A stretch of DNA of 64,000 bases, from the NCBI GenBank assembly GCA_029891345.1, contig CM057009.1, forward strand, positions 210,546,709 to 210,610,708, given 5' to 3'. The translations under genes were made by a program, and so were the position numbers. Origin of the DNA: Dryococelus australis (taxonomy: Eukaryota; Arthropoda; Insecta; Phasmatodea; Phasmatidae). Below, piece by piece: positions 1,302-61,628 of this stretch. Position 1 is the stretch's first letter, and the number at the start of each line of letters is the position of its first letter. The notes below the pieces were generated by a model that was given only the letters and a program-made list of their open reading frames with translations, was not told the DNA's origin and did no database searches.

Positions 1302-3284
<1,983 letters not shown>

Positions 3285-3957: not shown

Positions 3958-3984
3958 AAAATCAAATTAAGTTCTTTTAGCCGT

Positions 3985-4680: not shown

Positions 4681-4697
4681 AACACATACTGCAGGAG

Positions 4698-5493: not shown

Positions 5494-5619
5494 TCACTGT
5501 GATTCTTGCACAAAACCATTTTTATATTTTGGTCTACAACTATTATTACTTATTCATTAATTTTAATATCACTAATTACAAGCCTATTGCTTAGCTTCAT
5601 TTACAATAAAATGTCTCCA

Positions 5620-5636
5620 TCCCACTTCTGACACCA
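5620..5636 (-). promoter_or_regulatory. Primer-binding site, tRNA-Leu type
   Basis: The minus strand reads TGGTGTCAGAAGTGGGA. This fits the complement of a tRNA-Leu 3' end (...CACTTCTGACACCA) and is a common gypsy primer-binding site. It marks the start of the internal region of the minus-strand element whose gag remnant lies at 3985-5493, so its 5' LTR should lie just above 5637. Confidence 0.65.
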
Positions 5637-10200: not shown

Positions 10201-10423
10201 CTAGACGTCTTATTCAATATTCTCAAATCTTGATTGTCAAAAACTGATTCAGCTGCAACTACCACAATTGATTTCTCCAAACAAAGACGTTTTCACTAGC
10301 GCACATAGTTAAATAATACGTTGATTTATGAGAAATGATGCTAATATTTTAAATTTTTCACACTGCCAAGAATCTGATAATTTGTTGTACTACTACTATC
10401 ATTATAGTGATTATTTAAAGGCC
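7253..10423. other. Gene-free stretch, possibly interior of a non-autonomous hAT-like element
   Basis: No protein-like open frame was seen. The block catggttcgtac (7267-7278) near the left side is roughly inverted relative to gtacaaaccctg ending at 10541. TATAGC occurs at both outer edges (7262-7267 and 10542-10547). The idea that these bound one 3.3-kb element is weak, because the subterminal GGAC arrays are in the same, not inverted, orientation. Confidence 0.3.
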
Positions 10424-10541
10424 TCGTAAAAATAAGGACTTTTAAGGATCACGCAAGAAAATAAGGACTTTTAAGGACTTTTAAAAACTAATATAGCAAT
10501 TAAGGACTTTTTAAGGAGTTCTAAGGACCGTACAAACCCTG
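10424..10541. repeat. Array of aaggac units ending in hAT-like terminus
   Basis: Seven copies or near-copies of aaggac(ttt) occur between 10433 and 10528. They are followed by cgtacaaaccctg, whose complement begins CAGGGTTTGTACGGTCC. That resembles the CAGGGTTCGTACGG-type ends seen in many hAT elements. A similar set of aaggac units occurs at 7300-7350. This is subterminal-repeat architecture without a visible transposase. Confidence 0.5.
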
Positions 10542-10986
10542 TATAGCCTTATTGAAGAGGCATGCATTTGCAAATTCCACTAGCTCCTTATGTTACCATA
10601 CACCTGGCCTTCATACACACCATTGCTCATGCAAGTGGGATGAGGCAAGGGAAGTAATGCAAAACAGCAAGCATGTAACAATATAAATGCACAAGCTGCG
10701 CCTTGTTTTTTCCACCATATGCTGGTCTGCCACAACAATACATTACAAAATCAATATTTTGTGTGTCTGATTTTAAGGACAAATGTCAATTTTAGAGAAA
10801 ATGCAAATAAAATATTAAAGGCACTGATTTAAATAAAACAATAATAGATTTTTAAAATGACTCAAAAATATTAATGCATGGCTCGAGTAATACAGTGAAA
10901 CAAAACTGTACACAAAATTACTAAAGTCAGTAAAATTTATGCCAAGATAATACAGTTTAGATTTTAAAGAGTTAAAATGAACTCAC

Positions 10987-11212
10987 CCCTGTCCAAAAGT
11001 TGCTTAACAACATCAGTACAACCTTGAGCTGCAGCAACACTAAGTACTGTCCGTCCTTCAGGATCAATGCTATCAACGTAACAGCCCCAGAAAAGTAACA
11101 ATTCCAAACTGCTGGGTGTCCCATAGATGAAGCAGCCCACAATGGTGTGCGTCCACTGCGGTCAGCATGATCCACATCTGCTTCATACTCTAGCAGTAAT
11201 TCACATACATCC
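10987..11212 (-). CDS. ANKRD50: ANKRD50-like ankyrin-repeat gene, exon 3 of those in window (1-bp frameshift)
   Basis: The acceptor TTTTATAG precedes 11212 and the donor GTGAGT begins at 10986. The first base completes the Arg codon left by the 35438 exon, and the frame then reads DVCELLLEY...[22 protein letters not shown], an ankyrin repeat. Just after HPAV the frame breaks. Dropping one base of phase resumes the expected next repeat ([33 protein letters not shown]) up to the donor. Sequence around 11106/11107 on the plus strand looks as if one C is missing. Ankyrin repeats are protein-binding scaffolds; vertebrate ANKRD50 acts in endosome-to-membrane recycling. The break is either an assembly error or a recent null allele. 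All else in the exon, including splice sites, is intact, so I favour error. Confidence 0.85.
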
Positions 11213-14065
11213 CTATAAAACATTGAAAACACCTGGTAATTTTCCAGACATTATAATAAACACAAATATATGGCAACTACATACTATATCCAGCTTCCTT
11301 TATAATTTTATATGCGCTTGGTTGCTATACAGGTTCTACAAATATTTTTCATTTGAGGAGTCAGCTTCCGGGAAACTTTAGTAGGTAATTCTATCACAGG
11401 AAAAAATAAGGTTCTCTATAATACAGAACAGTATAAGGTACCCAATTACTTTACATATCATTCCGGCATTACTTGATTTCACTGCTTATTAAATATATAT
11501 ATTTACAAGCAAACAAAATTGACTGTTCTTAACAAACCATATACTAGAAAACACATAAAAAATATATAAAATGTCATTCATGATGATACAATGTTGCACT
11601 CATAAGAACAGTTAGATAAAGGTATTATTTAAAGAAAGAAAGTTGTGAAATCTTTACACAATTTATGTAGAATTCATCACCACACACACACACACACATT
11701 GTATAAAACAATCTATCTTTTAAAACCACTTGGAAGCCAAAATTATAAAAAAGTTGATTGTTTCAGAAATGCTAGAATGTTTGACTGATTATTAGGAATT
11801 AATTCCCTGTGTAATAACATGAAAAGATGACACTTCTATGAATATACAAATGTCTCCTAAGGCTGATATAACATAATTCCTTTGTATTACAGGTGATAGG
11901 TTTAAAATGTAATTTTCATGAATCACTTTTAAAAAGTACACAACATTTCTTAATCATATTTTAACTGTCTAAATAACAACTTAGCTAACCATCAACTTGG
12001 TAACTTTGAGAAAACCATTTTATTTAAACACTCAATCACCACACTTGTAATTCTGAATGAAAAAAATACTGTATAAAAATGTATTTATCAATAATGACCA
12101 CCAAATGAAATGTAAACAACAATACATGCACCATATTGTTTTATCATAGACTGTTTTATGAGAGAATAACCGGCACTCAAGACCTCAGTGTCAAGTGCCG
12201 ACCAAAACCTCTCAACCAGCTTATGAGAGAATATCCGATGTAGGCCTAAACTGCAAAATAAATTAACTTTGCATATAGAGTCAAGAAGCATTACATCAGG
12301 AATTTGTGTTATATAATAACTTTTCTAAATTCACCCAAATTGAAAACATAGCTAAAAAAAAGCTAGAAATGTAAGCCTAGTATCTTTATACAATATTTTA
12401 AACTACATTTCATGTGAAGCAAAACATAGTAAAGGAAATCCAGGGAATATTACACATCAAAAGTAAAAACTAAAATATTGTAATACTAAATCAAATATCA
12501 TACAATATGTACAAATATCATACAATATGTACTTATATGTAAATACTTATAAATATGAAATTATTTCAGTTTACATATTAGTAGAAAAAAAATGGGGAGT
12601 CCTAAACATGGGATGTGTATACGAATTGTGGAGCAGGTGAATGATTGGTCAGCCAGTAGCCATCTTCGTTCAAAATTTCTAATTTTTTCCTATAAATTTC
12701 CCATTTTTCTCTGGAAATGTAGCATTTTCCCACAAAACTAAAGTGAACATTTTTTGTTTAAGTTTTCGAATAAGCAAATTGGATTTGATGCTCTTTGAAA
12801 AAGTCAGCACATTAGCCAGGCAGATTCAAGGCTTAAGCCAATTTCACCAGTAGCCATGTTTGTTGGGATTAATCTTTGAAATTTCCCTTTTTCTCACCAA
12901 ATCATATTTTTCCACTTAAAATTTCTTCAAAAAATATGCCAAAACCCCTAAACTCTCAAAACTGTCAAATCCCACAAAAAAAAAAAACATTATAATGAGG
13001 TTTCTGAAGATTAGCAGATCTCTTAGCCATCCAGGATTTTTGCGACCTTGACATAGACCTTGCCCACATGTAACCATAAACTCAAAATATTGATAAAATT
13101 AGAAACATTTGGGGAAAATCATACAAACCAGGAAAAATTGTATCACTGACTTCGACAGCCAACTTGAATTTACATGAATTTAATCCCAGGTAACACTAAA
13201 CTCAAAAAATTGATAAAACTCACAAAAATTGGTTTTAAAATTGAATAAAAATCAGGGGAAATTTTCATTATTGAACATGGCTGTAATCTTGGATTGCCAT
13301 GACTTTGAAACTGTCCCAAAGTGACCTATGCCAGAAAATCAACAAAACAATCCAAAAATCACAAAAAAAAAAAAAACTTTATAAATCAAAATTAATTTTA
13401 ATAATAAAATAAAAGATTTAAAAAATAACACAAAATTCTGAAAATTATGGAAAACATTAAATAATTCTTTTAAGACTTATGTATGGCAGGTCTGGGCTTA
13501 AATTCTCATAAAGAAGGCAGAGAACACATCCTGCTGACATGATGAACAGCACACACCTGATCCTCTTTCAACCTCCACCCCTTTCACTAACACTAGACTA
13601 CGGTAGTAATTTTAAGAGGACTTCAAATTGTCAACTCATAATTGGCTGTAAGTCATAGACATCTTGGCTTGTACAGATAATTTATGTGGTCAAAGTCACA
13701 CAATGTCAGAGTTCTGCATCTAATGGAAGAGGTGACAAATCACTCTCTCTGTAGTAATTTTTAAATTGTTCAAGTTATTTTATGTTCAACTCTTCCATCA
13801 CAATTCACAGGGTATTATTGGCCACGCTTATAATTTCACATACATATTTTTCTACCTAAGTAAAAAACCAGCAAGGTATTAAGGAACACAAATCAAGATA
13901 AAGCGTTCATTTAATAGCGAACCTGTGGCCAGTGTTCCGGCTTCGTATTTTGTCGTACCAATGCTGACTCCAGCTGGACTGTCTCCATTGTCAGTGATGC
14001 CATTCGTAAACTGTTATGATTAGGCCCTTAAACCTTGGAATATACAAGGCCAGCTTGGGTGATAG
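11213..14065. other. Left part of 24-kb ANKRD50-like intron
   Basis: AT-rich intron with a (CA)n microsatellite at 11679-11698 and A/T homopolymers. The phrase ttatgagagaata recurs at about 12156 and 12221. No gene, RNA or transposon protein was recognised before the 6-bp target duplication at 14066. Confidence 0.7.
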
Positions 14066-14071
14066 TCCTAT
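14066..14071. repeat. Target-site duplication TCCTAT (left)
   Basis: TCCTAT directly precedes the left inverted-repeat terminus AGTAGT. The identical hexamer directly follows the right terminus ACTACT at 34162-34167. A perfect 6-bp match exactly at both ends of a 20-kb inverted-repeat structure is strong evidence of a single transposition event. Confidence 0.9.
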
Positions 14072-17000
14072 AGTAGTTTGAGTGGGCCACTACTATGATG
14101 CAAGTGCAACAGTGGCACAAGTGCCCATTTGATTAACCTGGGAGGGGGTAGTATTGGAGGGAGGGATACTAATTGGAGCTATCCCTTCCAAGGTTATTTC
14201 AGGCTTTCCCCTCCCCTCCAGGACTCCTCCACTGCTATACTGTGATTGACCAAAGTGTTACATAATTTCCCCCCTCCTCAACAACCCCCCCCCCCCTGAG
14301 ATGTGCTGTGATTGGCTGTTGGGTGAGGGCAAGTCTACCACTCCCTGCTGATGGGTTACCTCTCCTTTCCCCTCCCCCTGCGAGGTGTGCTGTGATTGAC
14401 TGTTGGTTGCAGTAGCAAAACCAGCACAAGGGACATTTGGGAGTATAGATGTTCACCCTCTGGCCGCCAAGCCACGACTGACGAGGTCGGCAGCTCTGAT
14501 GACCAAAGGGAGCGGAGGAGGCTGTCTAGAGGGATGTCATCAGATGAACTTCTGACAGGATGCGAGCTCTGGCGAACGATGCCCGGGGTGGAACTTGGTT
14601 CAATTTCCGTTGAGGGCAATTTACATGTGATTGCGCAATCAGTAATTATATAATAAGTACACATGAACACTGTTTGGCTGCCGAAACACAAATTAGGAGG
14701 TTGGAAGGGGTGTGTAGGGTTAAGATATAGGCTGCGGTAAGGGGTAAGGAAGGTGTATGAGGTTAGGGTATTGGCTGCGGTAAGTGGTAAGGGGAAAGGG
14801 GGGAGTGTAGGGATTAGTTCCTTGGTTCAAATCCCATTGAAGGTAATTACAATTTTTTTGCAAGGTGAGAGGATAGGGAAAGTCTAGGGTTGGAGCAGGA
14901 GGGCTGAGGAGTCAGTCTGTGGTTCGATAAATATTGGGGGTAATTAATTTTTATTGTATAATGAATAATTGTGTAATAAGTAATTACTAAGAACTCATAA
15001 TCAGTAATTAGCAATTACATAATAAGTACATGTAATAAGTACCAATACTAATTACATAGTAAGTGTACACAACAAGTACAGAGACTAATTACCAATTGAG
15101 TTACACTTCCGTTCGCTACCATTGCCCACTCGTGAATGACCTGAGATTGTATATACCATTCAATATATCTCCCAAACAGCCATGACGGCTTGGAGGAGTC
15201 AAGTGCCACCAACCCAACACATCACCTGCTGCCCCGCTCTGACCACTCACACTTTACAACTAGTGTTTTCACAAGTATTTTACAAATATTTTATTAAAAT
15301 GAAGTATTTTACATGCTTTTACATGTAATCCCCTGTGTTCACCATTTATTCCAAGCCAAAATATATATTGATAATAAAAGTATGTTATTGTTTTGACATT
15401 CTCATTTGTGTAAACCCGGTTTCTCACACATGTTCTGAATCCCCACGACACCCCCCCCCCCCCTCCAGGGGACATCCTCCGTGGGGAGATCAATATTAGC
15501 ACCTCTTTACCCATACAAGCCGATCTCCTCTACAGAGGCACGAGACAGTTCCGACCCCCATCACCGTAGTGGTGAAATGAGAAATTTGAAAACAGCTGCA
15601 ACGGGTGCCACCAATCAAGGATCCCTCCATATATCTCTGTCTCTCTCTGTCTCTCTTCCTACACATGAGAAGTGATTCCTCGCCGCTGTATGCAGCACCA
15701 GACGGAAAGCACTCTGTCTCTCGTTCTCTGTCCCTCCCTTTCTCTCCATCACCACAGTCCGAGAGCTTCTCTGAGGCACAGGAACGCATGCTGGCCGGGA
15801 ATGCATGCACACGTGAAGTGAATAATTCCTCTGGCCAACTACAGGGGAATGCCTAGCATTGAAAACATTACCCAAATATTTGTTTTAAGCATACTTATAC
15901 AAAGCTTTAATTTACGTTGTTCATTCTATGAGTCGCTATGTCAATATTTTTTTCCACTACATTTTTATATTTTCTCATATACTGTATAAGTGTAAAAAAC
16001 AAACGGCATATGCGATACGGATTACAGTAGGCAACACACAAAGGGCTAAACATCACATAAATAAAAATACATTTATTTTAAAAAGTCATACTATAATTTA
16101 GGAACCACTCAGCTTCGATTCGCATAACATAACTGATGTGAGTTAATGTTAATGATTGAAAGTGTAAGAGTGTGACGTAAAAATATGTTACTCAGTGTAA
16201 TACTCTATCAACTCGCACCACTATTCATTGTTAATATATTTTGAAAGTCAAACAATGAGTAACAAAGCCTGCACGATACAGGTCAAGGAAAGAAAATTTG
16301 AGGGTGGGTGTGATGTAAATGGCTGACAACTTCTCACACCCTTTTGAATGTTACAGTGATTAATTGATTTCTGTTTAAGCTAGCCTTTTGGTGAATAAAA
16401 AACATAATAAACATTTGCAAAACTTAAAAATTCTTTCAAAGATTTTAGGCTAGAGGTGTGCGATAGAATGAAGTTAAGTGACTATAGGCTTGCATCAGGA
16501 GTGACGAGGACTCGCTTCCTCACCCATCGAGAGTAAATATACATCATTAACTTTTTTTAACCGCATAACAAGTAATGAATAATTACCGTGAATATTTGCA
16601 TATTGTATAACAAGAGTGAGTTATATACATTCTACCCGACCCAATGCTCATTTATATAAACCCAAGATTTGCTAATATGTTGTATATAAACCAACCAGGC
16701 TGTAATTATCAAGCGAACTACATATTGAATGACAAACAATACATGTTTTCATTACCTATCTCAGTCTAACTTCATTTCCCTTGGGGCGAACCCTCCTATA
16801 GAGACATTTACTGCTGCCCAAGACACCGTGCTCACCGGTGACTCGAGAGGCGACATGGGATAGTTACTCTAACATTCTCCCTTCCTAGAGAAGTCTCTCC
16901 CAAACCTTTGACGCGAGAACAAGTCAACACACTCCCGAACGACACATATCTTTGGGAGACAGGATTGCTTGGGAGAGCTTCCACATTCACAAAGGTTATA

Positions 17001-18105
17001 AAATCAACTGTCTCTGCGTTTATGATTACACAAATAAAATTGCCTTACACATATTTAATTGATCAAAAAAAGTTTTTAAAACTTTTCAAAAAATTAATTG
17101 TTTCTAAATCATTACATAATAAAATTTCAATAAATTAAAACCAGAAATGAAACACAAGTTTAACTGAAAACACACTTTCACGTTATGCTTTGAAAATCAA
17201 AAGAGAATTTTCCTTCTATGTTAAAAAAAGTAAATAATTTGTTGCTACCGTAATGTTCTCATTACATATAACCAACAAATTTGCACTTCAGAAATCCCAT
17301 CAAGGCTAAATATAATCTTACTGTCCTAAACCTTGCTTCATACAAGACCAAGTTTTGTTTAAATATATAACTGTGTTGGTTTAGTTTGTGGTTTGAATCC
17401 TCTGCCAAAGTTAAAAATGTATTAACTGAGATATTCATTACTTCGACCCAAACGAAGGTAATTACATTTTACTACCAAATCTGTTATCTCTAACCTCTGC
17501 GAGGTAAATATGCATATAATAATTGGTATTTGTGTATAAAAACAGTATTAACCTTTGTTTAAACCTCAACATATCTTGAACAATAAATAATGTACTCTTT
17601 ATCATTGTTATATAATGTTGATCTTATGGAGGAATAGTTTAAAAACAAGAGATACGCGCTTGCATCTCTAGCAAACTGCCTTCCCAACAAACGAGAAAAG
17701 CCTAGCATTTACTCCAGATACACGAGCCCGTCAGCAGTGCAGCAACACATGCAAGAATGAGTAAGGGAAGGTGGTTAGACGGGAGAGCGGCGAGGCTAGT
17801 TTCCAGCCAACCAAAGGCACGCAAGGGATTATCATTGTTCCTCCATCACCCGTGCAAGACACATCACAGCCTTGCAAGTCCAGGAAAGCACATCCCCAGC
17901 AGCACATCAAACAGTAAATATAACTTTGGTTAGAGTTCCGTTTTGTCATACGAGTCCATAGAGACTACCTCAGAACCCTATCTCTCCTGGCATATACTTA
18001 CGTTAACATAAACATATCCACATATAAAGTATATAAAAAATAATTCTTAAAATTAGTCTCTTTCTAGGGACCTACATAATAAAATTAAAATAAACTAAAA
18101 CCCAG
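14072..18105 (+). repeat. Left terminal inverted repeat, outer arm
   Basis: This pairs with 34161-30000. From the outside inward it holds a G/C-rich subterminal block (14130-14420) with repeats of tgctgtgattg.ctgttgg and C/G homopolymers. Next is a tandem pair of about 45-bp units around ggctgcggtaagg (14712-14800), then a field of taattac/ataagtac short repeats (14940-15100). A CT-rich tract follows (15635-15760), then AT-rich sequence. No conserved open frame is shared with the other arm, so the open frames at 15269-15875 are not credited as genes. Several arm differences are CG versus CA, as expected from methyl-CpG decay. Confidence 0.85.
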
Positions 18106-20527
18106 CTTGCTCACGCTATAAATATTTAAATGAACTTGAAAAGTGGGTTTGATATAAGCAAACAAAATATTAATTGTGGAGGTTCCTCTTTCATAATACC
18201 TGTAACTTACTTGCTTTCTGCTTCCTGCGACTGTAGTGATGTATCTGATGCTTATGTTACTGTTTAATTAATTAAATGTATAGTTAATGTATATAGATGT
18301 GTGAATGAGCATGTTCCAGTAGACGTATTAATGTCTTATTTTATGTATATTTCTAGGTAGCTGATAATTTCAGATGCTTTATATTATAATTTTTACATCT
18401 TACATTAATTAATTTTTTTGTCTTTTTCTCATATTAAATTAGTTATAAGCTGTGGTTTTACGTCCTTCAGTAATCCTTAAAAATAAATTTCAGATTTAGA
18501 ACTTTTGCTAGTCAATGTTATCTTGTAGTTTAATTTTATAAATAATACAATTATATGTATATGGATATATGTTAGGTGTGTATATGGTTTTATGTATGCA
18601 TGTGTGTTAATCGTGCAAGTTCACAATTAAGCTTAATTTTATGTAAGTTGCTTTTACATATTTCATGTAAGACTCTTTCTAAGTTCATAGTAGACATTAA
18701 GTTTTGTGTCATTGTTTTATTTCTTTTTTCTTTTAAAAAAATAAGTGTTATGTTCTATTATGGAAAGTTTTTAAATGTAAGAGGTGATAAAACCTTAACT
18801 TCACCACAAAAAAAAAAGACTTTATATTATGATTATTTTATTATTATTATTAGTATTATTATTATTACCATTAGAATTAACTATACCTATTGCACCAAAT
18901 GAAATATTCACCTTACCCATTGTATAAATGTTCCCGCTATGCTTGAGTTAAGAATACCAATTGCCGAAATTTTTCTAGTGTGACAATATATTTTGTGTTA
19001 CGCAATTTGTAATACTTAGGGCGCGTGATGTCACCTGGCCAGTGTGGCAGTTGAGTCGTGACCCAGACGTGGAAAGAGCCATAAGCCAGCTGTGAGTCGG
19101 GGCTGATGCGCATTATGTGATGGTCACGCAGAAGCCGTGTTATGTGTGCTGGATGAGATGACCTGGTGGTAAAATGCAATCGGTTACGAGAGATGTTCTG
19201 TGACTAACCCGCCAAGTGTTATGTGAGCAAGCCTCGCATATAAAATGCACATGATTATGAGAGTGCGATTTCGCAAACAGGCAGTGGTGCAAGCCAATCC
19301 AGTATTTTAAGAACAATTGAGCAAAGTTACAGGTGGGACATAAAGTAGTATTCTTCACTGAGTAACTGAATTTTACCTTGAACTTGGACACGTCATGGGT
19401 CGCTACTAAAGTGATTATTACGAGGTTGTGCATACCTCATCTGAATATTATTACACGTTTAGAACTGGCGAATATCGCCCAATTGCCAAGGACGTGTGGC
19501 TATAAATTTAATGCACGAACATATGTGTTTTGCAAAACTGTTCTGGCGTAAAGAAAACGGATACACTGTTTGACGTGCTCAAAGCATTAAAATTATGAGC
19601 ACGCCAATATACACATGTGTAAGTGTGCTCCAAGGTTGGCGACCAATCTTCAGTGGGCAACGGTCATGTACAGTGGCATGTAGCGAAGAAGGGGTGTCAA
19701 GGGCCAACAGCTATTCGCATTTGATGGTGGCGCGATGGTCCGAGGTTTTTTGTGAGTCCTTGTTGCCAGCATCCTGAGTATAAGGCTGCTTCAGGTTTCT
19801 CTGCTGCCCTTTCCTGCGAGCACGTGTAATGTATGCCTCTGCTCACGTATGTCATTGAAACACTTTTTAAGGAGACATTCCTCTGGTGCGAGATTCTACG
19901 AAATGTCATATGGAAGTTATTGCTTGGTGAGAAGAACTTCCGAACCCGTTAATGGTACATACGGCTGCGACTCTGACTTGTACCAATTTTGTGAGAACCT
20001 TATTTGGCCAGAGCTATTTTAATATTTTTACTTCTAGTTTGGTGTGTGAAAGATCAAAGTAATTTTATACCGAGCAAACTTTAATATGGTACACTTGAAA
20101 TTGTACTGGTATAACTTTTATGGTTTTGTTTTTCCATGGTGGAGTAGGACACATTTTAAAAGCAAGCCACAATTTTTAAGATTGTTTTATATTGGCTGCA
20201 ACAGTAGAAGTATCACGTGAGAACACAGTGTTTTCGTTATTAGCTCATTAAATTTTTGAGAACCGCAAACACTGGCCTTTGAGAACATTATTGCAAAATC
20301 ACCTTAAAGGACATCATATGAAATGTTTAGCTAATATTACTACATGAATGTATCTAAGGAGTAGTAGTAGTAGAAGAGTAAGGAAATATTGGGCCACGGT
20401 ATATGAGAATTTGGAGATGAGACTGTTTTTTGCCCCTCGAGGGTGCACAAGTGTATTGTGAGTTGTGAATTGAGTGAGGCAACTTTGACACCCTTGACAC
20501 TCCTATGGGGTAGAGGGTGTCTCACTA
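18106..20527. other. Left-arm segment with no partner in right arm
   Basis: About 2.4 kb lies between the outer and inner homologous parts of the left arm and does not align with the 1.4 kb at the equivalent place on the right (28557-29999). It includes an (ATT)n stretch near 18835-18870 and a GC-richer patch at 19020-19900. No recognisable protein or RNA gene was seen. One or both arms must have gained, lost or replaced sequence after the arms were last identical. Confidence 0.6.
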
Positions 20528-20709
20528 GGAAAAATATTTGTTGATATCATACTATTCCCTTAACATATACCAATTTTCATAACAATCCAATTTTCCATTA
20601 AGTCAGGTCTTCACAGATATATATAACATTTTGCATTGTGACATCACACAACTCATGAAAATATTTTGCTACATACAAAATTGCTTATTATCCTGTCTTC
20701 GTTTGAATT
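20528..20709 (+). repeat. Left inverted repeat, inner segment
   Basis: This pairs in reverse complement with 28334-28556. Shared strings include catactattcccttaac.tatacca, ttttgcattgtga, and gaaaatattttgctac. Homology stops abruptly at about 20709, defining the left edge of the unique core. The right partner carries an expanded GT microsatellite that is absent here. Confidence 0.75.
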
Positions 20710-22011
20710 ATTATCTACCACAGAAAATTCAGAAGTCGCCCCACCACTAAAAACAACTCACTCCATTTTCAAATTTCTTTCCCTTACAAGAACTTATAAT
20801 TCCGCAGAGCAGACCGTAAACACAAATTCAGTCAACATTAAATTTGTGTGTCCACACCAATATTTCTAAAAAATACTTTATATTTATACAAAGTAATTTT
20901 CACAATTTTTGAGCAGTCATAGTTTTGTGTTAGGATCCCTTAATTTTGGGACGCTCTCTATTTTTTGTTACGATGCATTAGGGAATTTCAGTAATTTTTG
21001 AAGGATTATGGGAATTTTTTAATATGTTGTTCTGGTTAGAAGTATTTATATTTTGTTGTTCAGATCGATCCTAGGCATGGTTAGGTTATTGTCATTTTGG
21101 GGTTAGGTTTACCCATTGTTTTATTTGTTCAGATGTGAATCCTTCTTTTTTGTTTTTTGGTTATAATTTTGGAAAGCCCTTTTGCTTCTGTTTTGGGGTT
21201 AGGGTCTAGTCTTTTTGCCTTTAAATAGTAGCACTGGTTTGTTTGAATTTTAACTGGTAATGCCTTCTTTTGATAAATTATTATTTTTTTCTATAAAGTC
21301 GTCATCATTGTTATCCCAAATTGTTTTGTGTCATCCTGCTGTGGTTAAGAACTCTTTTCATGCTGCATGTGTGCCAAAACTTCCCGGAGTGATTAGCCAA
21401 CATTGGCGTTTCGAGTCGAAAGCTGTGTGTTTGTATGTCATAGCAGGGCAGGAGAGGAGAAGTTATGCTGTCGGCAGCAAACAGAGCTGTGGAGTACTGG
21501 TTTATGTGGAGTTGAGAGAGAGTGCCTCACCTTACGATGTTTACGCCTAGAAGAGCGTTTTAGGGGTTTAGTTATTTTAGTTAAGGAGTATTTGAGAATT
21601 TCCCTTAATCTCCCTCCCCTAAGAGTCAAGGAGTTATCAGTAATTTTAATTATTGTAGTTAAACGAGTTGATAATGAATGAACCAAAAGATTGATAGATT
21701 TGATTGATAAGATTGATCAAAGGATTGATTGACTTTATACTCCCAAACCTACCCCATCTCCCCAATTTACCCCCTTTTCAATTTTCATTTTCCCTGCTTT
21801 CTTACTTTTCACCCCCCCCCCCCCCCCCCTTTTCCCTTAACCAATCCTTTTACACCTTCCCATTTTCCCACCTTTTCACAATATTTCTTACCAAACTTAA
21901 AACAAAGCATTCATTACACCAAAGAAAAAAACCATTATATTCTCCCATTCATATTTATTTCATCCATAAAAACAATATATAAGAATACAGAAATACAAAA
22001 ATAGGCAATAA
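20710..22011. other. Left part of element core: G/T-rich then pyrimidine tract
   Basis: From about 20900 to 21260 the plus strand is T/G-rich and C-poor. At 21668-21730 there is a GATT/GA low-complexity run, then a long pyrimidine-rich tract (about 21735-21900) containing roughly 20 consecutive C at 21812. Open frames through the tract (Pro/Phe-rich) are compositional artefacts. No gene was recognised. Confidence 0.6.
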
Positions 22012-23115
22012 TTATATACAGAACTCATGAAAAATAAAACAGTACTCCATTACATTTTGTTTACATTTAACTATATGTTTAACCATAACACACTTCCTGG
22101 TAAATAAACATCCACACAACATACATTGGTGTACAACACAATCAGGATTCTTTAAAAAATTTATAGTTATGTGATGATATATATTACTAAGTAAAGTGAA
22201 TAACTTCAATACTGAGACCGTCAAGTTATGCACCCCAAGACTTTCGCCACAAGTTAAAAAATGTTTTTCAAATTGTATATGAGTAGTAAACACAGACTGA
22301 CATTTATTACAAGAATATTTCTTTCTAACAATGTTTCCAAACAAATATTTTTTTGGTGCCTTCTCAATTAGTGAAGAAAAGAAGATTCCTTCTTGCAGTA
22401 TATACTCTGGTGACGAGGTTTTGCATCCTCTTCCAAAGTAGTTAGCGGAGACGTATTTGAATGAGTAGGTATACTTGCTACGGAAAATTTGCAACAATCA
22501 TATGTTTCCTTACTGCAATGACAATTTTGAACAAACGTAATCATATTCTACATCTGTATACTTTCAATTGAAGACTCTTGGAACATGATCTCATTTCATC
22601 TAACTGCACATAACTATATGCGGTAAATGATTGTCCACAGAAAAGACATATTCCCATTGAAAGATTACTTTTACATACTGCTCCATGCTTTACTAATGCA
22701 GAATTTCTCGCTAATGTATTCCTACAGGATCCACAGCAATAGCTATTTCTCTCAAAATTCCTTACACAGCTACTTCTTTCATGACAATGCATATTGAGAC
22801 TGTGCATGAAGTTTTTATAGCAATGTTGACACTGCAAACCAAGTGATGGTTTACCCATTTCAGGAGTAAAACTGCAGCATCTCAATCCATGCAGATGTAC
22901 TTCATTACTAGTATTAAACAAACATTGACATTTCAAACATTTATGTAGATTGCAAAGAGATTTACTGCGACATTGTCGTTCATTAGAATGTAACTTCCCT
23001 CATCGAGATACTAATTGTTGCAAATACAACACTTTTCTTCCAATTCCATTGTTTGGCATCAAGTTTCTTCTGAAGACAGTATATCTGACATATTCACCTC
23101 TAACATATCAAACAG
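22012..23115 (-). pseudogene. Decayed tandem C2HC zinc-finger gene inside the element core
   Basis: Two minus-strand frames (22936-22541 and 22497-22012) carry a regular array C-x2-C-x(about 12)-H-x(3-4)-C. Examples are LQCQHC...HERSSC, YCCGSC...KHGAVC, ICLFCG...EMRSC (His replaced), YSCNKC...KHFLTC and HQCMLC...KHIVKC. A further finger, CLKCQC...HGLRC, starts the first frame. Another begins at 22541 (YRCRI), where a stop replaces its second Cys. Frameshifts follow there and near 22975; sequence up to 23115 contains CCIC but is broken. About seven fingers are visible. The likely role of an intact version is nucleic-acid binding. It is not a standard Polinton gene and may be a captured gene or a novel element protein. 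Confidence 0.6.
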
Positions 23116-26100
23116 AACGAACTATCTACCTAAACACACCAACCTTTTATACTTCTCGTGAACCTAGTAACATATGAGGAACCAAACTGTATATATGAAA
23201 AATCATCACCTGTGAAATTAAACTATTCTTAAGATGAATCATGTAAGGAGAAAAAATACTATCTTTGCAAATCTCTTTAAAAAGTTATCAGTTACTAGAG
23301 GTCCAATCCGGCTTGCGATCTCCGGTGATAGTAGTGATCGGAGCTCAATTGGTCTTCAACCACCTAGGCGTAAACATCTCTCAAAGCTCACAACTTTCAT
23401 TGCTTGCTAACATTCCAGTTTGACTTTAGCACACCAACATTTTATAATTTTCGTGAAATTAGTAATATACTGCAACAAAATATCATGTATCTTACTGACA
23501 TAACACACATAGGCAAATGGTAAGCCAAATCCCACAACAAATCTATATATCGAATGACAATGGATCAGCATCTAACACATCAACGTTTGACTGCGGGAAC
23601 CTGTCTTCATATATTTCCCTACTAACCATCACATAGTACACTTGCCAAAGACTCTACTTGAAATAAAATTTAAAAAAAAAAACATCATAAACACATGAAA
23701 CCACTGTAAATATAATCTAAAAACAAAAAAAAAATAGTGTATCCATTAAGTAACAAATACCAAACGTTTTCCCACTACAGCGTATCTAACCAGCTCTGTA
23801 ACGCATGTGATCATATGCCCTGAAGGGGACATTAAACATTTTTGCCCTAAAGGGGTCTCAAATCCCTACCAAGGACACTTCACCCTACTACTTAACCAAC
23901 TACTCTACCGAAGTTCCCAGAACTGGAGAATTTTTAAAAAATTTACTTAAAAACTAAAAAATTTAAAAGAATTAAAAAAAAAAAAAAAGTTTTAAAGACT
24001 TAGACATTTTATGCAGAATCGAGTATGGGAGATGTTGCAGTAGTTCCAAATTTAAATTCATTATATAGACAAACTACAAAAATCTTAAAAAATTTAAAAT
24101 AACTTATATTTTTGTATTTATCAATGTTAAAACTATCTCACCTCCTACACTAGATTCACTTATAAATCTCACTAATTAAAAATCAACAGCCCAAATTCAT
24201 ACCATTAACAATAAAAACTTTTCAGTTTCCTTATATAAACGGATCCTTATTTTACTTAATCACATAATATATCATCTATAAATTACCATGAAAATTACAT
24301 ATGTTCTCATTTATCAGGAAGTGAGTGCATAGTATCATTGATGGAAATTTAAAAATATCACTTAAAACTATCATTCTGAACAAAGTAAGAACAACAAGGC
24401 TTTGCATCAAAATATACATTCGCATTACTAGCATAACTTTATCACATTCTGAAAATTATTTTAAAAAATATTAAAATTAAATATTAATTTCTTTTTCTAA
24501 ATCTCGTTAAGTCAATGTTCCATTTGCTAGAAACAGATTACTCAACCCTAACACTATATTATTAATTAGATATGTCAACCAACATTCCCTACCACCCAAT
24601 TATATTTATAGTTTGATCAACCAACTATATACCCCAAACCTCCATATATACCTCCAAAAATGTTTAAACTAACTCCTAATATATGATGGAATATCATACC
24701 CGCTGCTACAAAACATACCAAACAGATATTTCTACATATTCTTCCAACCAAATTATTTTAACCTGTAATACCCCAAATACCTGAACACTAAATACACTCC
24801 ACACCTTTAAACGTAGATATACTAAACACTTTACTTCATACCATCCAGGACCCCAAAGCACTAATTAAAACATTCATATGAAATATTCTGGCCTATTACC
24901 CTGAAAAAACATTACATAATATAATAGCAATCCCACGGACAAATAATACCATCACCCACACTCTATACCCTCAGAAGAGATCCAATCTTAATGAAATCTC
25001 ATGTTAATAGGTTATATCACCAATAAACCCAATCAAATGTTCCAGCAGAAACTATTATATCCATCATTACTCCAAAACTATATCACAACATACAGCTCAT
25101 TTACACAAACTATGGCATCCATTTGCAAAACCGTTAGCATAAAACATTACCAGCAAAACTAACATACCATATAGATAAATCATATCAACCACTGAATAAA
25201 AAAAATGTTTCAAACACTCATTTCGACAAATAATACTAACGTCATACCACGGGAATAACTTTCCAAAATATTTCAACCATGCAATCCAGACAAGATAACA
25301 ATATCTTTAAATGTATTTTAATATAAATTTCAAAATTATTGCTTTTAGTAAATTGCATACCAACTCAAACACATCGTAGAAGTACAGAAGATAGTACTCC
25401 TTTCAGACATTTACTCTATACTCACCATCAGTTATTATTAAAAGATTTTTAATAATAATACCATTACTTTTTTTTTTCAATCTAATATTAAAATAATTGA
25501 ATAAGTTATGCATATAGAAATATGCACAGCACTAGATTTCACACCAACAGAGATATACTTTATTTTCAAACTGAAATAATCTCAAGACACCCAATTGAGT
25601 GTAAAAGTGATTGATACTGAGGGAGAATAAATATCCCATTTCACAATAATTAATAGAGATTTTCCTTCCTCTATTCACAGATTACTCTATACTTGAAAAA
25701 AGTAATTTCAATAAAATTCCCATATTTCCTTTCTAATTACCATTTAAATTATACAACATTTCTAAACCAATAGCCATACTAAGCATCTATATACATATAT
25801 TTAACGTTCTTATGCCCTCACAGCTTACAAATATTTCTGTGTGTGAAGACATTGTGTACGACCATCAGAAAAAAAAAGTATATTCAATGACAAAATGAAT
25901 AACATCTTCAACACACATTTAACTAAGATCTATTTGTTTCTCCCGATCAGCTTAATGTAAAAAGAGGGATGAAATAAAAACAGACGTCTTTCATACACTA
26001 TAACTTTATTTCACACATGTACCAAATATACATAATAGTTATACACTCATACATATTCTTCATCCAACAAAAATAATTATGATTTAGTCTAATTTTATAC

Positions 26101-28333
26101 AACAAATCTTGTTGTGAGTAGTTCACCTACTCCTATTTGCATACACTACACTACAATCACAACATGGATACATCTAGTATGATATACTGAATTTACAGTT
26201 ACTAACTTTATGTCACCTGGCATTAGAGCTATTCGTGAAAGTCTTCTCTCAAAATTTTCAGATCTTCGATACTCTGGTATAACTTTTAAGATTCTGAAGG
26301 CTTTCACGTTGGGATTGACGATGTCAGCATATCCTCACCAAGAGTTTTCTTATTCATATTATAACAGCTTACACTATCACAACATGACTTTACTCCTGAC
26401 TAACTGCCTTCCATCACAACCATTGAACAACAGAATGCGTGCTTACATACTAGTAACACTACAGAACAATCAGTTTATATCATCCATCTTAAATGTCTCA
26501 GTATACGTTTGCTGAGTACGAATACATAAAACCAACATAATTGAAGGATTGTTATACGAAACCTAATAATCTCATTCAATATCTAACCTGCGAAGTCCTG
26601 CATCAGAACCACCCAAACTTCTACTACTTTAGCACTCTTCCAATATGCATTATACCAGCTCCTAGAATGTGGTATGTCCGCAACAGTAGCTGAAAAAATG
26701 TTCTGACCGCTAGAAGAGCACGTCATAATTTTCACTGCGCCCTCACGAGAGAATGAAGTTTTGGATGATTTGTAACGGCGATACCAGTTGCTTTTATAAA
26801 ACTTAAATGATTAGTTAACTCTCAAATCACTCAAAGTCAATTAGAGAAAGAGGGTTCTTACTTGAACGACAGACGAAATGTGAATTAAGCAAAGAGCTCA
26901 TGTGTATATACCCACGTTTTCTACCCAAAACAAGTCCTCAACTGCTTTATCTGGGAAAATAACAAACAATCTTAACGTTAACCTTTGTTACCAACTCCTC
27001 ACCACTGACTCATCACTGGAAAACTATAAAAAAATAACAGAAAAAAAATCTATTTTTAGAAAGATAAAAAAACCACAGAAAAAAATTAAAATTTTTAGAA
27101 AAGTTAAAAAAAAATCACAGAAAAACAAATTATAAGACGTTAGTGGCTGAAAAGACATGATACCTGTCATCAGCTTCGTCGAAACCAAAGCTAAGGTCAA
27201 CCTTAGCAGTTGAGTCAAATGTAAATGCAATGTATCATAGTAGTGTTTGAATTTTTCCTGAGTGCTGTATATAATTGTGGCTATTTTTGTAATTCCGTTT
27301 TCTTATATATTGTTTTTAATGGTGTAATAAATATGAATATAATAATATTATTGTTTATTTTATTTGGTGTGATGAATGCTTTGTTTGAAGTGTGGTAAGA
27401 TATATATAGGATTGTTTTTTTTTTTATATTTGGGTGGTTACACAAAGGTAATATTGACTGGGATGTGGTTACAGTCCGTCCTGCGGGATTACTAGTTTTT
27501 GTGAGGGAAAATAAATTTGAGAGTGGAGTGAGTTGTTGTTAGCAATGGGGTAGCTTCTGAATTTTTGAGGCATGATTCTTTATTAAAGCGACTGCTCCTG
27601 ACTGTTCCAGTCACATAAACACACCCAGGAACACATAATTTCCCATTAGGCATACTGATTGAATACAATTGAACCTAAACACACGAAACTCACAAAATAA
27701 AAACAATATCTCTTCCAACATGGTCTCCGATACAGTACGTTTTCTTGCATGTAATTCAGAATAGTAAGGAAGATGTTTATGGTCATAAGTTTCTGAGTTT
27801 AGCCTGAATTTTTTAGTATATTTATCTAAAGAACCTTTGGAAGGTAACTTGGATCCCTAAAACGCTCTATCGATCCATCATCTGTAGCAAAGCATCTTCC
27901 AGCAAGAAGAGAGATCCCGTCATGTACATCACAGCTCCATCTCTTTGATGGGATGCTTTATTGTCAATGACACGTGCACGGCTAGAGTTGTTAACTGACC
28001 CAGACGTGTATCTTTTTGTAGAAGGTAAGGTTAGGGGTGGCATTACCCAGGTTTCCAGAAAGTGTGCGGAGAAAACCCACTTTCCAACCACTGCACCATT
28101 TGTGTTGCCGGCTGGAGTAATAATTAGGCTCGGCATCTGCTCAGCTGCTGCAGCGGCACAACACTTTAGCCAGGGACTTATACATCTCCTGCTCTCCTGA
28201 AAGGTAAGGATATGAGGGAAAGGGGACAACAGCTTCAGCTGTAGGCGCAAGGTGCACGGCCGTCATCTTGGTTACCATTTTACCCTCAAAGTCTCTCCTT
28301 TTACCCCAAAAATCAGTCTTTTTCACCCAAAAA
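23116..28333. other. Right part of element core: strongly C-over-G skewed, no intact gene
   Basis: From about 22.0 to 26.9 kb the plus strand is A/C/T-rich and G-poor. Hand counts are 16 C and 2 G in 24601-24660, and 15 C and 2 G in 24721-24780. The skew reverses to G/T-rich at about 27130-27560. A phrase of about 45 bp (acaccaac.ttttat..tt.tcgtga) recurs at 23135 and 23425. Minus-strand frames give only short hydrophobic, Gly-rich fragments broken by stops, for example near 24600-24720. No polymerase, integrase or capsid motif was found. Confidence 0.6.
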
Positions 28334-28556
28334 TTCTCAAATAAAGACAGAATAATAAGTAATAGTATACGTAGCAAAATATTTTCACGAGTTATGAGAT
28401 TTCACAATGCAAAACGTGTGTGTGTGTGTGTGTATGTATATATATGTGTGTGTGTATGTATGTATATGTGAAGAGTTGAATTAAGGGAGAAATTTTCTGG
28501 TTAATAAATTTGGTATACGTTAAGGGAATAGTATGGTAACAACGAATATTTACCCT
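28334..28556 (-). repeat. Right inverted repeat, inner segment, with GT microsatellite
   Basis: This is the reverse-complement partner of 20528-20709. A (GT)n/(GTAT)n microsatellite at 28416-28470 has expanded inside it; the left arm has only a short tatatat at the same place. Confidence 0.75.
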
Positions 28557-29999
28557 AAAACAATTTTGGCAATTGGTTTTCATAACATAAGCTGATGTGG
28601 CCCTCGCTGTGATTCAAACGGTCGTGAGTGAAGTGTTGTGATCCCCCAAAAGCAGAGCCGAATACATGCGCGAGGAAATGTTACTTCCTCTTTACATCTC
28701 CATAAAGAATTGCTTTTTAATATTGAGCATCCGCGGTAATGTGTGATCATGTAAGAGTAAACTGGAACACCCATAATTCTTTATTTAATTTTTGCAGTGA
28801 TTTGTTATGATTAAATTTGTTTCTAAAGACGTAATTCATATCTACACTTTTTAATAAATATGCAGTCACAGACTCTTGCAGTTCCGGCAGCCATCTTGCC
28901 AAACTCGGCACTTAAAATTTAAACAGTTCACCTATTAAATTTATAATAATTTAATATCACTGTTTTGAAAGGGCTAAACTTAGGTGTAATGTATTCGTAT
29001 GAAATTTAATAGTGTTTTGTATGTTCGGCATGCCTATACCGGCATTTGCTGTAATTTATACTCTCTGAAAGATGCTTAGCAATAACAAACTAAGACTTTC
29101 CAGAGGAGTTCTAATTATTCAGAAACAATTAATTTGCCTAAGTGTTTTTATACCTTTTTTTATGTATACTGTTCAGTGTATGTATTTTAAAATAATTTCC
29201 CTCGAGATGCATGCAGGAAGAAGACCATTGCTAATGGCGTCTCTGCACCACCATCCTTAATCTGCAACAGTGGGTAATCGAGGGTAGACGTGTACCACGC
29301 CGTGCACCACAGGAGCTTCTTCAGTTGTGGTAAATCATGTTAGTGTTCAATAGTTTAATTTAAGATACCAGAACATTTTCATTTTGCTCCTCCTGTGTGC
29401 AAGTTCTCCTCTTCATAGACCCATGACCCAGGAGAGTTTTATACCGTAATTTCCACCATGCTGTTCTGCACCTTTGCACGCTTAGGCTCCTGGCAGGCCT
29501 CATGTGCCAGGCGCTCTTCAAACACGAGGACTTGTGTGTATTACCTATGTACCTTTTCGGTAATACAATTAGCTTCATTGAAACCAGAGTGTGTAATTAT
29601 TTATTTATTTAATTTTCACCACTGGAGCTGGCCCTCTCCAGTAATGGCTACCATGTAGTAAACTACCATATATAATAGTATTTAATGTGTTTAGCCACTG
29701 CTTTATCAATTTGTAATTAGACGTATACTGCAGGGGGATGGTGCCACAGGCTGTTGACCTGTAACGACCCTAAGAAATAAAGAACCTAGTGCTTTTCCGA
29801 GACGTAGAAAAGCTGGCACCCTGGGACCATCAACAACTTTATCCGCATACATTGCCATGCTAGAAGGTCAGTATAAGAATCTGGGATATCCCACCCCTTG
29901 CAAAGAGCAGAACATGTCAAAGCATAATGGGGAAAATTTATGTGATTGGTGAGGCAAATATTTTATTTAGAGCAAGGGTTTTTGTTTATTTTAAGTGTA
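28557..29999. other. Right-arm segment with no partner in left arm
   Basis: About 1.4 kb that does not align with the corresponding left-arm segment 18106-20527. It contains no recognisable coding frame, RNA gene or terminal repeat. It may be an insertion, or original arm sequence lost from the left side. Confidence 0.6.
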
Positions 30000-32900
30000 A
30001 TGGATTTTGGTTTATTTTGAATATTATGTAGGTGCTTAGAAATAAATGAATTATGAGAAAGATTATATATGCTTAATTTATATATGGGTAAGATTTTGTT
30101 AACATTGACGTAACTATATATGCGGAGAGATGGGGTTCTGGTGTAGCCTCTATGGACTAATGCGACAAAATGGAAGTCTAACGAACGTTAAATTTGCTGT
30201 TTGATGTGATGCTCGGGATCTGCTCTCCTCATCTTGCGAGGCTGCGATGTGTCTTGAACAGGTGACTGAGGAACAAAGATAATCCCCGGTGGCACACCCT
30301 CTGTTGGCTGGAAATGAGCCTTATCACTCTTCCCTCCGACCGCCCTCCCGTACTCATTTTTGCATGTGTCACTGCACTGCTGTCCGGCTTGTGCATCTGG
30401 AGCAAATGCTAAGCATTTCTTGCCAGTTGGGAAGGCAGTTTGTTAGAGATGCAAGCACGTATCTATTATTTTTAAACTATTGCTACATAAGGTAGATGGG
30501 TTTGTTAATATACTATACTAAATTACAATGATAAAGAGAACATTATTATAAAAAATGATTTACCCTCTTATTTAATCTTCAAGATGTTTTGAGGTTTAAA
30601 AAATGTTTAATACAGTTTCTTTTATACACAAATACTAATTGCTATATGCATATTTATATCACTGGGATTTGAGATACAGAATTTGGTAATAAAAATGTAA
30701 ATACCTTTGTTTGCGTCAAAGTAAGGAATATCTCAGTAAATACATTTTTAACTTTGGTGGGAGATTCGAAGTGCGAGCTCAACCAACACAGTTATATATT
30801 TAAACAAAACTTGGTCTCGTGTGAAGCAAAGTTTAGGACAGTAAGAATATACTTTACCTTGATGGGATTTCTGAAGTGCAAACTTGTTGGCTATAAGTAA
30901 GGAAAATATTAGGGTAACATTAAATTATTTCCTTTTTTTAACATAGATGGAAAACTATATTTTGGTTTTTGAAGGATAATGTGAAAGCATGTTTTGAGTG
31001 AAGCGAGTATTTCACTTTGCATTTTAATTTATTATAATTTTATTATGTAACAATTTTAAAAAATTTATTTTCAAAATAATTTTTTTTTTACTATTTTTTT
31101 GTTAGTTAAATACGTGAAGAGCAATTTTATTTGTGTAATTGCAAACATGGAGAGAGTTGATGGTGTAACCTTTGTGAATGCGTGAGCTCTCCTCAAGCAA
31201 TCCTGCCTCCTGAGGATGTGTGCCGTTTCGAAGCACGTTAACTTGTTCTTGCATCAAGGGTTGGTGAGAGACTGCTATAGGAAGAGAGTGATTGCGGGTA
31301 GCCATCCCCTGATGCCTCGCATGTCACCGGTGAGTGTGGTTTCTTGGGCAGCGGTAATCTTCCCTATAGGAGTGTTTGCCCTGAGGCAAATAAAGTAAGA
31401 CTGAGGCAGGTAAAGAAAAAGCATATTAGATTATTGTCTGATTTGCAGTTTGCTTAATAATTACAGTCTGTTTGGTTTATATTACAACATATTAACAAAT
31501 ACTAGGTTAGTTGAAATGAACATTGGGTCTGGTAGGATGTGTTATTACTCATGCTAGTTATACAATACGCAAATATTCAAATAATTATTCATTACTTGTT
31601 ATGCAATATAAAAATTTTTTTATATGTATTTACTCTCAATGGGCAATGAAGCGAGTCATCATCACTCCTGATGCAAGCCTACAGTCGCTTACATTGTTCT
31701 ATAGCATGCCCTTAGCCTAACGTACTTGAAATAATTTTAAAGTTTTGCAAATGTTGATTAGGTTTTTTTATTCATCGAAAGGCTGGCTTAAACAGATATA
31801 AATTAATAACGATAACCTTCAGAAGCATGCGATAAATTGTTAGCCATTCACAACACACCCTCCCTTGAATTTTCTTTCCTTGACCTGAATCGCGCAGGCT
31901 TGGTTACTCCCTGTTTATCTTTCAAAATACTTTAACAATGAATACTGGTGTGAGTTGATAGAGTATTAACACTGAGTAACATATTTTTACGTTGCACTGT
32001 TAAACTTTAAATTATTAACGTTAACTCACATCAGTTATGTTACGTAGATCAAAGCTGAGTGGCTCCTTAATTATAGTAGGATTTAAAAATAAATTTCCAT
32101 TTTATTTATAAGATGGTTAGCCCTCCAGGTGTTGCCTACAGTAATCCGTCTCACGTGCGCCGTTAGATTTTTTTTTACACTTATACAATATATAAGAAAA
32201 TATATTTTAAAAAGTGATGGAATAAATGTTAACATCACGACTCGTAGAATGAAAAACATAAGTTAAATCAAGTATTAGTATGCTTAAAATAAATATATGG
32301 AGGATGTCTTCAACGCTAGGCATTCTCCTGTAGGTAAATAGAGGAAATTTTTGCTTTGCGTCTGTGTGAATTCCAGTCTGATGTGCGTTTATATGCCCCA
32401 GGGAAGCTCTTGGACTGTGGTGATGGAAAGAGAAGAAGGGAGAGAGAAAGAGTGACAGAGTGCTTTCCATATGGTGTTGTATACAGTAGTGGGGAAACAT
32501 TTAACGTGATGGGGAGAGAGAGAGATAAAGAAAGAGATATAGGGAGAGTTCCTGGATTGGTTGGGCCCCTCACTGCAGTTTTGAATTACTCATTCCACCG
32601 CTATTGTGACAGGGGTCGTAACTGTCTCGTATCTTTGTGGAGGTCGGCTTGTGAGGGTGAAGATGGGCTAATGTCTATCTTCCCAGCTGTGGTCGCATGC
32701 AATCTGAAACGCGGGGTCTCTGAAAAAGTTCCCTGGGGTAGTGTCACGGGGATTCATACCAAGTGTGGGAAAAAGAGTTTTCACGAATAAGCATGTCAAA
32801 ACAATAACATACTTTTATTATCAATATATATTTTGGCTTGGAATAAATGGCGAACACAGGGAATTACATGCAAAAGCATGTAAAACACTTCATTTTAATA

Positions 32901-34161
32901 AAATAGTTGTAAAACACTTGTGAAAACACGAGTTGTAAAGTGTGAGTAGTCAGAGTGGGGCCAGAGGTGATGCGTAGGGTCGGTGGCACTTGACTCCTCC
33001 AAGCCATCATGGCTGGTCAGGGAATATATTGAACGGTATATACAACCTCAGGTCATTCGCAAGCGGGAAGTGGTAGCAAGCGGAAGCATAATTCATGTCT
33101 CAGTAATAGTCATCTGCAATTGGTAATTAGTCTCTGTACTTACTGTGTGTACTTACTGTATAATTAGTATAGGTACTTATTGCATGCACTTACTGTGTAA
33201 TTGCTAATTACTGATTATGAGTACTTAGTAATTACTTATTACACAATTATTCCTTACGTGATCAAAATATTTCATTCCCCCTGTGCCCCCCCCCCCCCCA
33301 TCAACACCCAATGGGTATCAATCCATGGACTGACTCCTCAACCATCCTGCTCCAACACTAGAATTTCACTAGCCTTTCGCCTTACAAAAAATTTTTATTA
33401 CCTTCAATGAGATTTGAACCAAGGATCTAATCCCTACACTCCCCCCTTACCCTTTCTTTACCATAGCCTATACCCTAAACCTACACACCCCATCCAACCT
33501 CCTCATTTGTTTCAGCAGCCGAAGAGTGAACATGTTTACTTGCTATGTAATTACTCATTGCACAATTATGCTTAATTGCCTTTAAAGGGAATCAAACTGA
33601 GTACCACCTCGGGCATTGGTTGCCAGAGCTCCTATCCTGTCGGCAGTTCATCCGATGGCATCTCGCCAGACAGCCTCCTCAGAGCACTGGTAGGCCCCTA
33701 ATTCTCCGGCGGGAGACAAATGAACATCATCCCTTCCTCTTCCCCTCACTTCGGTCATCAGAGCTCACTACCTCATCAGTTATAGTTTGGTGGCCAAAGG
33801 GTGAACATCTATACTCCCAAATGTCCCTTGTTCTGGTTTTACTACTGCAAACAACATCCAATCACAGCACACATCATAGAAAAAAGGGGGGGAGGGGATA
33901 GGAGAGGTAACCCATCAGCAGGAGGTTATCCCATCTTCACCCAACAGCCAATCACACAGCACACCTCATGTAGGAGGGGGAAGGAGTGTAAAACTTCAGT
34001 CAATCACAGTCCAGGAGAGGGGGGGGGGGGATGAGATGGGAAGCAGGAAGCCTGTAATAACCTTGCCAAATAGTATCCCTCCCTCTGAGACCCCCTTCAA
34101 GGTTAATCAAATGGGTATTTGTGCCGCACTTGCATCACAGTAGTGGCCTACTCACACTACT
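30000..34161 (-). repeat. Right terminal inverted repeat, outer arm
   Basis: Reverse-complement partner of 14072-18105. It ends ...AGTGGCCTACTCACACTACT at 34161. It retains cg at several sites where the left arm has ca, for example around 32945-32985 against 15180-15250. It includes the GA-rich counterpart (32430-32545) of the left CT tract and C/G homopolymers at 33287 and 34020. There are no shared open frames of note. Confidence 0.85.
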
Positions 34162-34167
34162 TCCTAT
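34162..34167. repeat. Target-site duplication TCCTAT (right)
   Basis: Identical to 14066-14071 and directly abuts the right terminus ACTACT. Confidence 0.9.
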
Positions 34168-61610: not shown

Positions 61611-61628
61611 TACACTTTACGTCTCACC

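Follow-up and report, generated by a model that had tools for sequence, protein, structure and literature searches.

The phasmatodean Dryococelus australis carries, in a 64,000-nucleotide stretch of its genome (GCA_029891345.1, contig CM057009.1; hereafter the window, G000:C17:210546709-210610708 in an assembly of 3.415 Gb and 646 contigs), a 20-kb element bounded by giant inverted arms. We read it, with a probability of about three in four, as a giant-armed, non-autonomous element that inserted long ago, moved by Polinton/Maverick-type machinery supplied in trans. The coordinates, termini and TCCTAT duplication given in a preliminary description of this DNA were exact on re-check, and the match between the two flanks spans exactly six bases. 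The long inverted arms it reported were borne out by self-alignment, far above chance. The features of the element are as follows (window coordinates, strand where one applies).

14066-14071: left target-site duplication TCCTAT, exact, directly outside AGTAGT
14072-34161: the element, 20 kb, decayed
14072-14077, forward strand: left terminus AGTAGT, (AGT)2, a boundary that recurs in several other copies
14072-22072, forward strand: left arm, a giant terminal inverted repeat, with homologous blocks 14072-18104, 20526-20863 and 21881-22072
18105-18874: later insertion in the left arm, not in the copy at C3:187.86M
19002-20524: later insertion in the left arm, not in the copy at C3:187.86M
20884-21880: later insertion in the left arm, not in the copy at C3:187.86M
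22015-22497, reverse strand: open reading frame (ORF) remnant of 161 amino acids, 3' part of the family's zinc-finger gene, with repeated Cys/His finger-like motifs by eye
22073-27212: unique spacer between the arms, with C-over-G bias on the forward strand
22544-22999, reverse strand: ORF remnant of the zinc-finger gene, 152 amino acids, with repeated Cys/His finger motifs by eye
25219-26245: spacer segment that in the C7-type subfamily adjoins the zinc-finger gene on its other side
27213-34161, reverse strand: right arm, with homologous blocks 34161-30001, 28557-28337 and 27565-27213
27571-28336: later insertion in the right arm, limits approximate
28587-29919: later insertion in the right arm, not in the copy at C3:187.86M
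34156-34161, forward strand: right terminus ACTACT, (ACT)2
34162-34167: right target-site duplication TCCTAT, exact, directly outside ACTACT

Self-alignment (E<=1.1e-23) resolves the arms into two outer blocks (14072-14521/34161-33736 and 14515-18104/33680-30001) and three inner ones (20526-20706/28557-28337, 20724-20863/27565-27426 and 21881-22072/27405-27213). The outer arms of about 4.1 kb described earlier do align, but the homology reaches further inward, to 22072/27213. Over the outer 4 kb or so the arms are 80.8% identical (3929 aligned positions, 449 transitions, 304 transversions, Kimura two-parameter distance 0.225), not about 90% as first estimated, and identities of 87-89% are confined to three 200-column blocks. 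Because the copy at C3:187.86M (L010+L011) aligns along the left arm without the intervening segments, we take these to be later insertions. They interrupt the arms, and the ancestral arm is therefore put at about 4.7 kb (8 kb with insertions), with a spacer of about 5.1 kb and an element of about 14.7 kb by coordinate arithmetic. The spacer shows strong strand asymmetry, with a GC skew to −0.59 per 500 bases within 23000-27000.

The window element is a member of an old multicopy family. Two DNA searches with arm sequence returned 44 and 96 matches (the best 40 of 348 and the best 40 of 884 first-look candidates were scored), which merge into 62 places. Among these are eight pairs of oppositely oriented arms no more than 30 kb apart: the window, C17:51.77M (14.2 kb), C4:157.35M (13.5 kb), C17:76.51M (7.4 kb), C3:149.19M (~19 kb), C3:187.86M, C3:250.40M and C17:208.58M; the arms at C17:76.5M measure 2.7 kb. 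The boundary ahead of AGTAG(T/A) was found again in several copies on other chromosomes, and some inspected copies lack it. Genome-wide, the terminal 15-mer occurs 272 times (131+141), compared with 42 (23+19) for a reversed-pattern control. The 100 listed places of this end pattern include pairs of 179, 248 and 266 bp with the same ends, which are miniature derivatives of the family. The commonest variant of the pattern among them is AGTAGTGTGAGCGAG.

A 6-bp duplication accompanies these ends more generally. We compared flanks for eight end pairs: four of the eight arm pairs, three miniatures and one 31-kb pair, the latter two kinds chosen by eye from the 100 places listed for the end pattern. 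C3:149.19M, C3:250.40M, C3:187.86M and C17:208.58M were left out (ends not fetched, or one end truncated). In the 6-bp register the two flanks of a pair agree at a mean of 4.38/6, versus 1.43/6 for the 56 cross-pairs, the highest of which scores 4. Registers of 4, 5, 7 and 8 give own-flank means of 0.50, 1.50, 2.25 and 1.62 versus cross means of 0.96, 1.30, 1.79 and 1.96. The duplication is exact in three of the eight (window, TCCTAT; C17:51.77M, ACCCTT; the 266-bp C2:246.16M, GTTGTT) and partial in four more (5/6 at C4:157.35M; 4/6 at C17:76.5M, C4:147.8M and C1:356.6M). The genome search proposed in the preliminary description has thus found further copies that share these ends and show 6-bp duplications, and copies that end elsewhere or lack the duplication are not the rule (one of the eight end pairs, at 0/6).

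In a tree of ten outer-arm sequences the left and right window arms are sisters (W_L and W_R, 100/100), as are those of C3:187.86M (C3_L and C3_R, 100/99). Two of the three testable elements thus have arms more closely related to each other than to any other arm in the tree, as would follow if the two were copied from one another when the element moved. The terminal branches of the window arms (0.094 and 0.12) correspond to about 0.1 change per site since any such copying.

The preliminary description saw no recognisable Polinton genes here. That stands for what was scanned: Pfam gave nothing over curated cut-offs in ten of the 19 window frames of at least 90 codons (stop-to-stop), and tblastn of six PolB pieces from a relative described below against the window matched the zinc-finger gene only. 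No PolB, ATPase, capsid gene, integrase or transposase domain was recognised in these ten ORFs of one decayed copy, and no genome-wide search was made for capsid, integrase or transposase. The zinc-finger ORFs had gone unmentioned. Neither of the two passes a Pfam cut-off; their homologue in a C7 relative does (L043:3108-3458; zf-C2H2_4, 27.4 vs 27; zf-C2H2, 27.0 vs 25.2). With the ORF at 22544-22999 the genome yields 7,969 first-look candidates, of which 150 were scored, each matching at E<=1.2e-25. Searches of 5.8 billion proteins with the L037 ORF and with eight aligned fragments of the protein returned no relative at E<=0.001, at the word-based sensitivity of the tool.

Zinc-finger gene and arms occur together at several loci. 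We fetched the neighbourhoods of the 11 best matches after the window (L030-L040): a window-type arm lies nearby in five (L030, L031, L032, L033 and L038), a C7-type flank in five (L034-L037 and L040) and neither in one (L039). Proximity was counted with the 62 arm places, 150 of 150 zinc-finger matches, 150 of 151 C7 PolB matches, 47 of 54 PF03175 matches (surplus pieces from one gene being left out) and 24 of the 100 listed end-pattern places (272 exist). Among these listed matches, zinc-finger genes lie within 30 kb of family arms in 10 pairs at five loci including the window, versus 0.16 expected, and the gene sits between paired arms at three loci (the window, C3:149.19M and C17:51.77M). 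A palindrome at C13:13.32M (L041/L042; 2719-7316/13088-8667) has the zinc-finger gene in both arms, and the C7 PolB pieces have no match there.

The connection to a polymerase runs through the C7 relative, a palindrome at C7:11.033-11.055M (L043-L045). Its arms (1716-5626/20030-16123) are 98.7% identical and continue as blocks of 78-88% within 7643-10902/16120-12043, contiguously on the right side (16123/16120). The zinc-finger gene is present in both arms, and the right arm and centre encode pieces of a protein-primed PolB (PF03175 at 2.6e-5 and 4.8e-4) with a YTDTDS motif by eye. The N-terminal piece of the polymerase is similar in sequence to the zinc-finger protein (28% identity to L039 by tblastn, E 1.8e-6); perhaps the orphan multi-finger protein derives from the polymerase's own N-terminal fingers. 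GC skew has opposite signs in the two arms, as expected for inverted copies. We considered the C7 palindrome as a terminal repeat and rejected this, its outer limit lying in TA repeats and not at AGTAGT.

Polymerases of this kind are abundant in the genome. A profile search of the kind suggested earlier was made genome-wide for two Polinton genes: PF03175 gave 54 matches, all over the cut-off (best 91 of 6,289 candidates scored) and present in 0 of 14 control genomes, and the A32-type ATPase gave 41 (150 of 1,049 candidates scored), with 2 of the 14 control genomes also positive. It placed no PolB inside a window-type arm pair among the matches listed. A C7 PolB piece yields 18,208 first-look candidates, which are not counted genes (150 were scored), and 8 of the 47 PF03175 places coincide with listed C7 PolB matches. 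Two of the 41 ATPases have a listed PolB within 15 kb, versus 0.054 expected (all 41 against the same 150 PolB matches). Those PolB relatives that bear a name come from insects (Bacillus rossius, Diabrotica, Cephus), and most of the 120 listed are nameless; a search of IMG/VR found no relative of a PolB piece, and among solved structures such a piece matches XPA chains only, and these weakly (E 0.003-0.024). In the C4:143.76M neighbourhood a PolB lies 11-16 kb from a zinc-finger match. Two ATPase matches of equal score and opposite orientation lie 12.5 kb apart (G000:C3:318239041, forward; 318251542, reverse), which may mark a further palindrome with a core virus gene in its arms.

At C2:167.77M (L024/L025, joined numbering), Polinton-like stretches at 1116-11556 and 13400-18190 interrupt a family arm. 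They hold the N-terminal side of a PolB, with Endonuclease_7 and PF03175 over the cut-off, and a C-terminal PolB piece; a 73% direct repeat joins 1332-3160 and 16357-18190. Other ORFs there presumably resemble Maverick capsid-side proteins, of which Pfam gave no confirmation. The arm resumes at 11557-12102. We therefore gave up reading this locus as a family arm linked to Polinton genes: a stretch that interrupts the arm cannot connect the two. No duplication at its junctions is evident by eye.

Several observations count against an origin by Polinton-type movement. The most direct concern the polymerase: no PolB lies between two window-type arms among the matches listed or in the fetched copies; in the two cases where the matches listed pair an arm with a PolB, the polymerase lies on the arm's outer side at a distance of 22 and 26 kb; and C2:167.77M is the only fetched copy with PolB pieces, which break into the arm there and may belong to an insertion of their own nested in it. 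The C7 pieces themselves score under the Pfam cut-off (23.8 and 19.6 vs 25.8 bits). Among the matches listed, zinc-finger genes and C7-type PolBs pair within 30 kb only three times, two of these being C7 itself, versus 0.40 expected, and because PolBs are so common that chance could have joined the two, the palindrome is suggestive and not conclusive. The dN/dS (nonsynonymous to synonymous rate ratio) of the window zinc-finger ORF against 13 others is 0.43-1.07, so its copies decay mostly neutrally, under weak constraint at best. A coding-phase test of the arms gave no signal or periodicity in 24 windows, and has little power, as the zinc-finger gene used as control is also weak (lowest p 0.018 of 7 windows). 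The arm tree does not resolve C17a_L and C17a_R as sisters. The register test includes C17:76.5M, whose left boundary was placed by eye at AATAGTG and whose alternative placement gives no match, and the 31-kb pair, with its 0/6.

That pair (G000:C4:22304082-22335401, inverted, with matching 25-base ends and no duplication) is probably not one element; possibly it represents a separate, larger family.

The Polinton-type class proposed in the preliminary description holds for the ends, the 6-bp duplications and the PolB pieces of a gene-sharing relative, and finds no counterpart in a polymerase between window-type arms among the matches listed. Because an internal PolB and arms of the usual length were looked for and not found, we do not count this copy among the autonomous Polintons.

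A foldback-type DDE cut-and-paste transposon outside the Polintons, with 6-bp duplications and long arms like those of Galileo or Foldback, is an unlikely source of the element. DDE elements can make 6-bp duplications, as the IS3EU-like superfamily does, and the 179-266-bp miniatures with the same ends resemble miniature inverted-repeat transposable elements of the cut-and-paste kind. Galileo's own ends and duplication length differ from those of the window element. Such a transposon would also agree with the lack of PolB in arm-bounded copies among the matches listed and of an integrase, which was not sought beyond the scanned ORFs. It leaves unexplained the (AGT)2//(ACT)2 ends, as in Mavericks, and the zinc-finger gene shared with a PolB palindrome, and the ten scanned ORFs showed no transposase domain. 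Long-armed foldback-like DNA transposons are known in Drosophila, as PMC3573991 reports for Galileo.

Another protein-primed PolB element, linear-plasmid-like or from an unclassified lineage of small DNA viruses, with ends that arrived at this short repeat by convergence, is a very unlikely candidate: PF03175, which the PolB pieces match, is a model described as organellar and viral, but an A32-type ATPase adjoins two related PolBs, and the 6-bp duplications suggest an integrase-like step according to PMC12220804. We give still less weight to the view that 14072-34161 is no single insertion, being either two smaller elements that landed in opposite directions or an inverted duplication that arose in the host around a repeat. 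An exact 6-bp duplication right at both ends, eight opposite-orientation arm pairs among 62 listed places, sister arms in the window and at C3, and three loci with the zinc-finger gene flanked by paired arms all argue for one unit, even though the arms are only 80.8% identical and interrupted by insertions.

If the element was moved by Polinton/Maverick-type machinery in trans, a PolB with its terminal protein would start at the repeated AGT triplets by jumping back, a mode of initiation known for adenovirus. The displaced strand could self-anneal through its arms, which would then be copied from each other in every round, and snap-back or template switching at truncated ends might produce longer arms with loss of viral genes. 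Such growth is plausible because truncated endogenous virophages retain terminal inverted repeats, which PMC8547959 takes as regenerated. A retroviral-type integrase would insert the linear DNA with a 6-bp stagger, and the zinc-finger protein would probably act as an element-encoded DNA-binding factor in replication or integration. More tentatively, a Polinton-type lineage may have become self-templating palindromes, in which mutually copied arms make up most of the element, virus genes are shed and a multi-finger orphan protein is kept, licensing replication or integration in trans with the apparently very abundant polymerases. If true, kilobase-armed non-autonomous Mavericks and miniatures of ~180-270 bp would mean that Polinton replication and integration machinery can be parasitised as a cut-and-paste transposase is. 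Given its large pool of protein-primed polymerases, this one genome would allow the growth and homogenisation of arms in protein-primed replicons to be tested by comparison of many copies.

Elsewhere in the window, ORFs with ankyrin-type repeats (by eye) lie on the reverse strand at 10975-11250 and 43143-43472; if both belong to one gene, the element would occupy its ~32-kb intron. Gypsy-like retrotransposon ORFs (by eye) lie at 55737-56444 (forward) and 58731-62631 (reverse), and a (TA)77 run at 1304-1457. Scans for tRNA genes and Rfam families found nothing, and the arm had no match in a phage collection.

Compared with vertebrate Mavericks/Polintons as surveyed in PMC8097293, the window element has the commonest end, (AGT)2//(ACT)2, the 6-bp duplications of intact elements, inverted terminal repeats and a size within the range of intact ones (12.7-24.6 kb); the reference list of that paper contains the adenovirus jumping-back work. 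Its arms are longer, at ~4.7 kb, or 8 kb if the insertions are counted, than the repeats of 46-1447 bp (mean 402) in the vertebrate set. Protein-primed PolB pieces are a further likeness, albeit in the zinc-finger-sharing C7 relative; the window copy has no recognised PolB, ATPase or capsid gene and contains an orphan zinc-finger gene. The titles and abstract openings of the literature searched held nothing on arms of several kilobases in animal Polintons. In the account of PMC12220804, rve-INT integrases typically produce 6-bp duplications and tyrosine recombinases do not. Mavirus-like elements and polinton-like viruses (PMC8547959, PMC12220804) are likewise integrated linear elements with terminal inverted repeats and short duplications, but have protist hosts, repeats of 0.2-2.3 kb (complete mavirus-like set) and virus genes. 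The cryptophyte survey (PMC8547959/PMC12220804) gives repeats of hundreds to thousands of bases, under a filter of 100 bp-8 kb. Teratorn (PMC6431247) differs in its piggyBac-like transposase, 18-bp terminal repeats and herpesvirus genes. With Galileo and Foldback (PMC3573991), Galileo's transposase being assigned there to the P-element superfamily, the window element shares inverted arms that are long relative to the element.

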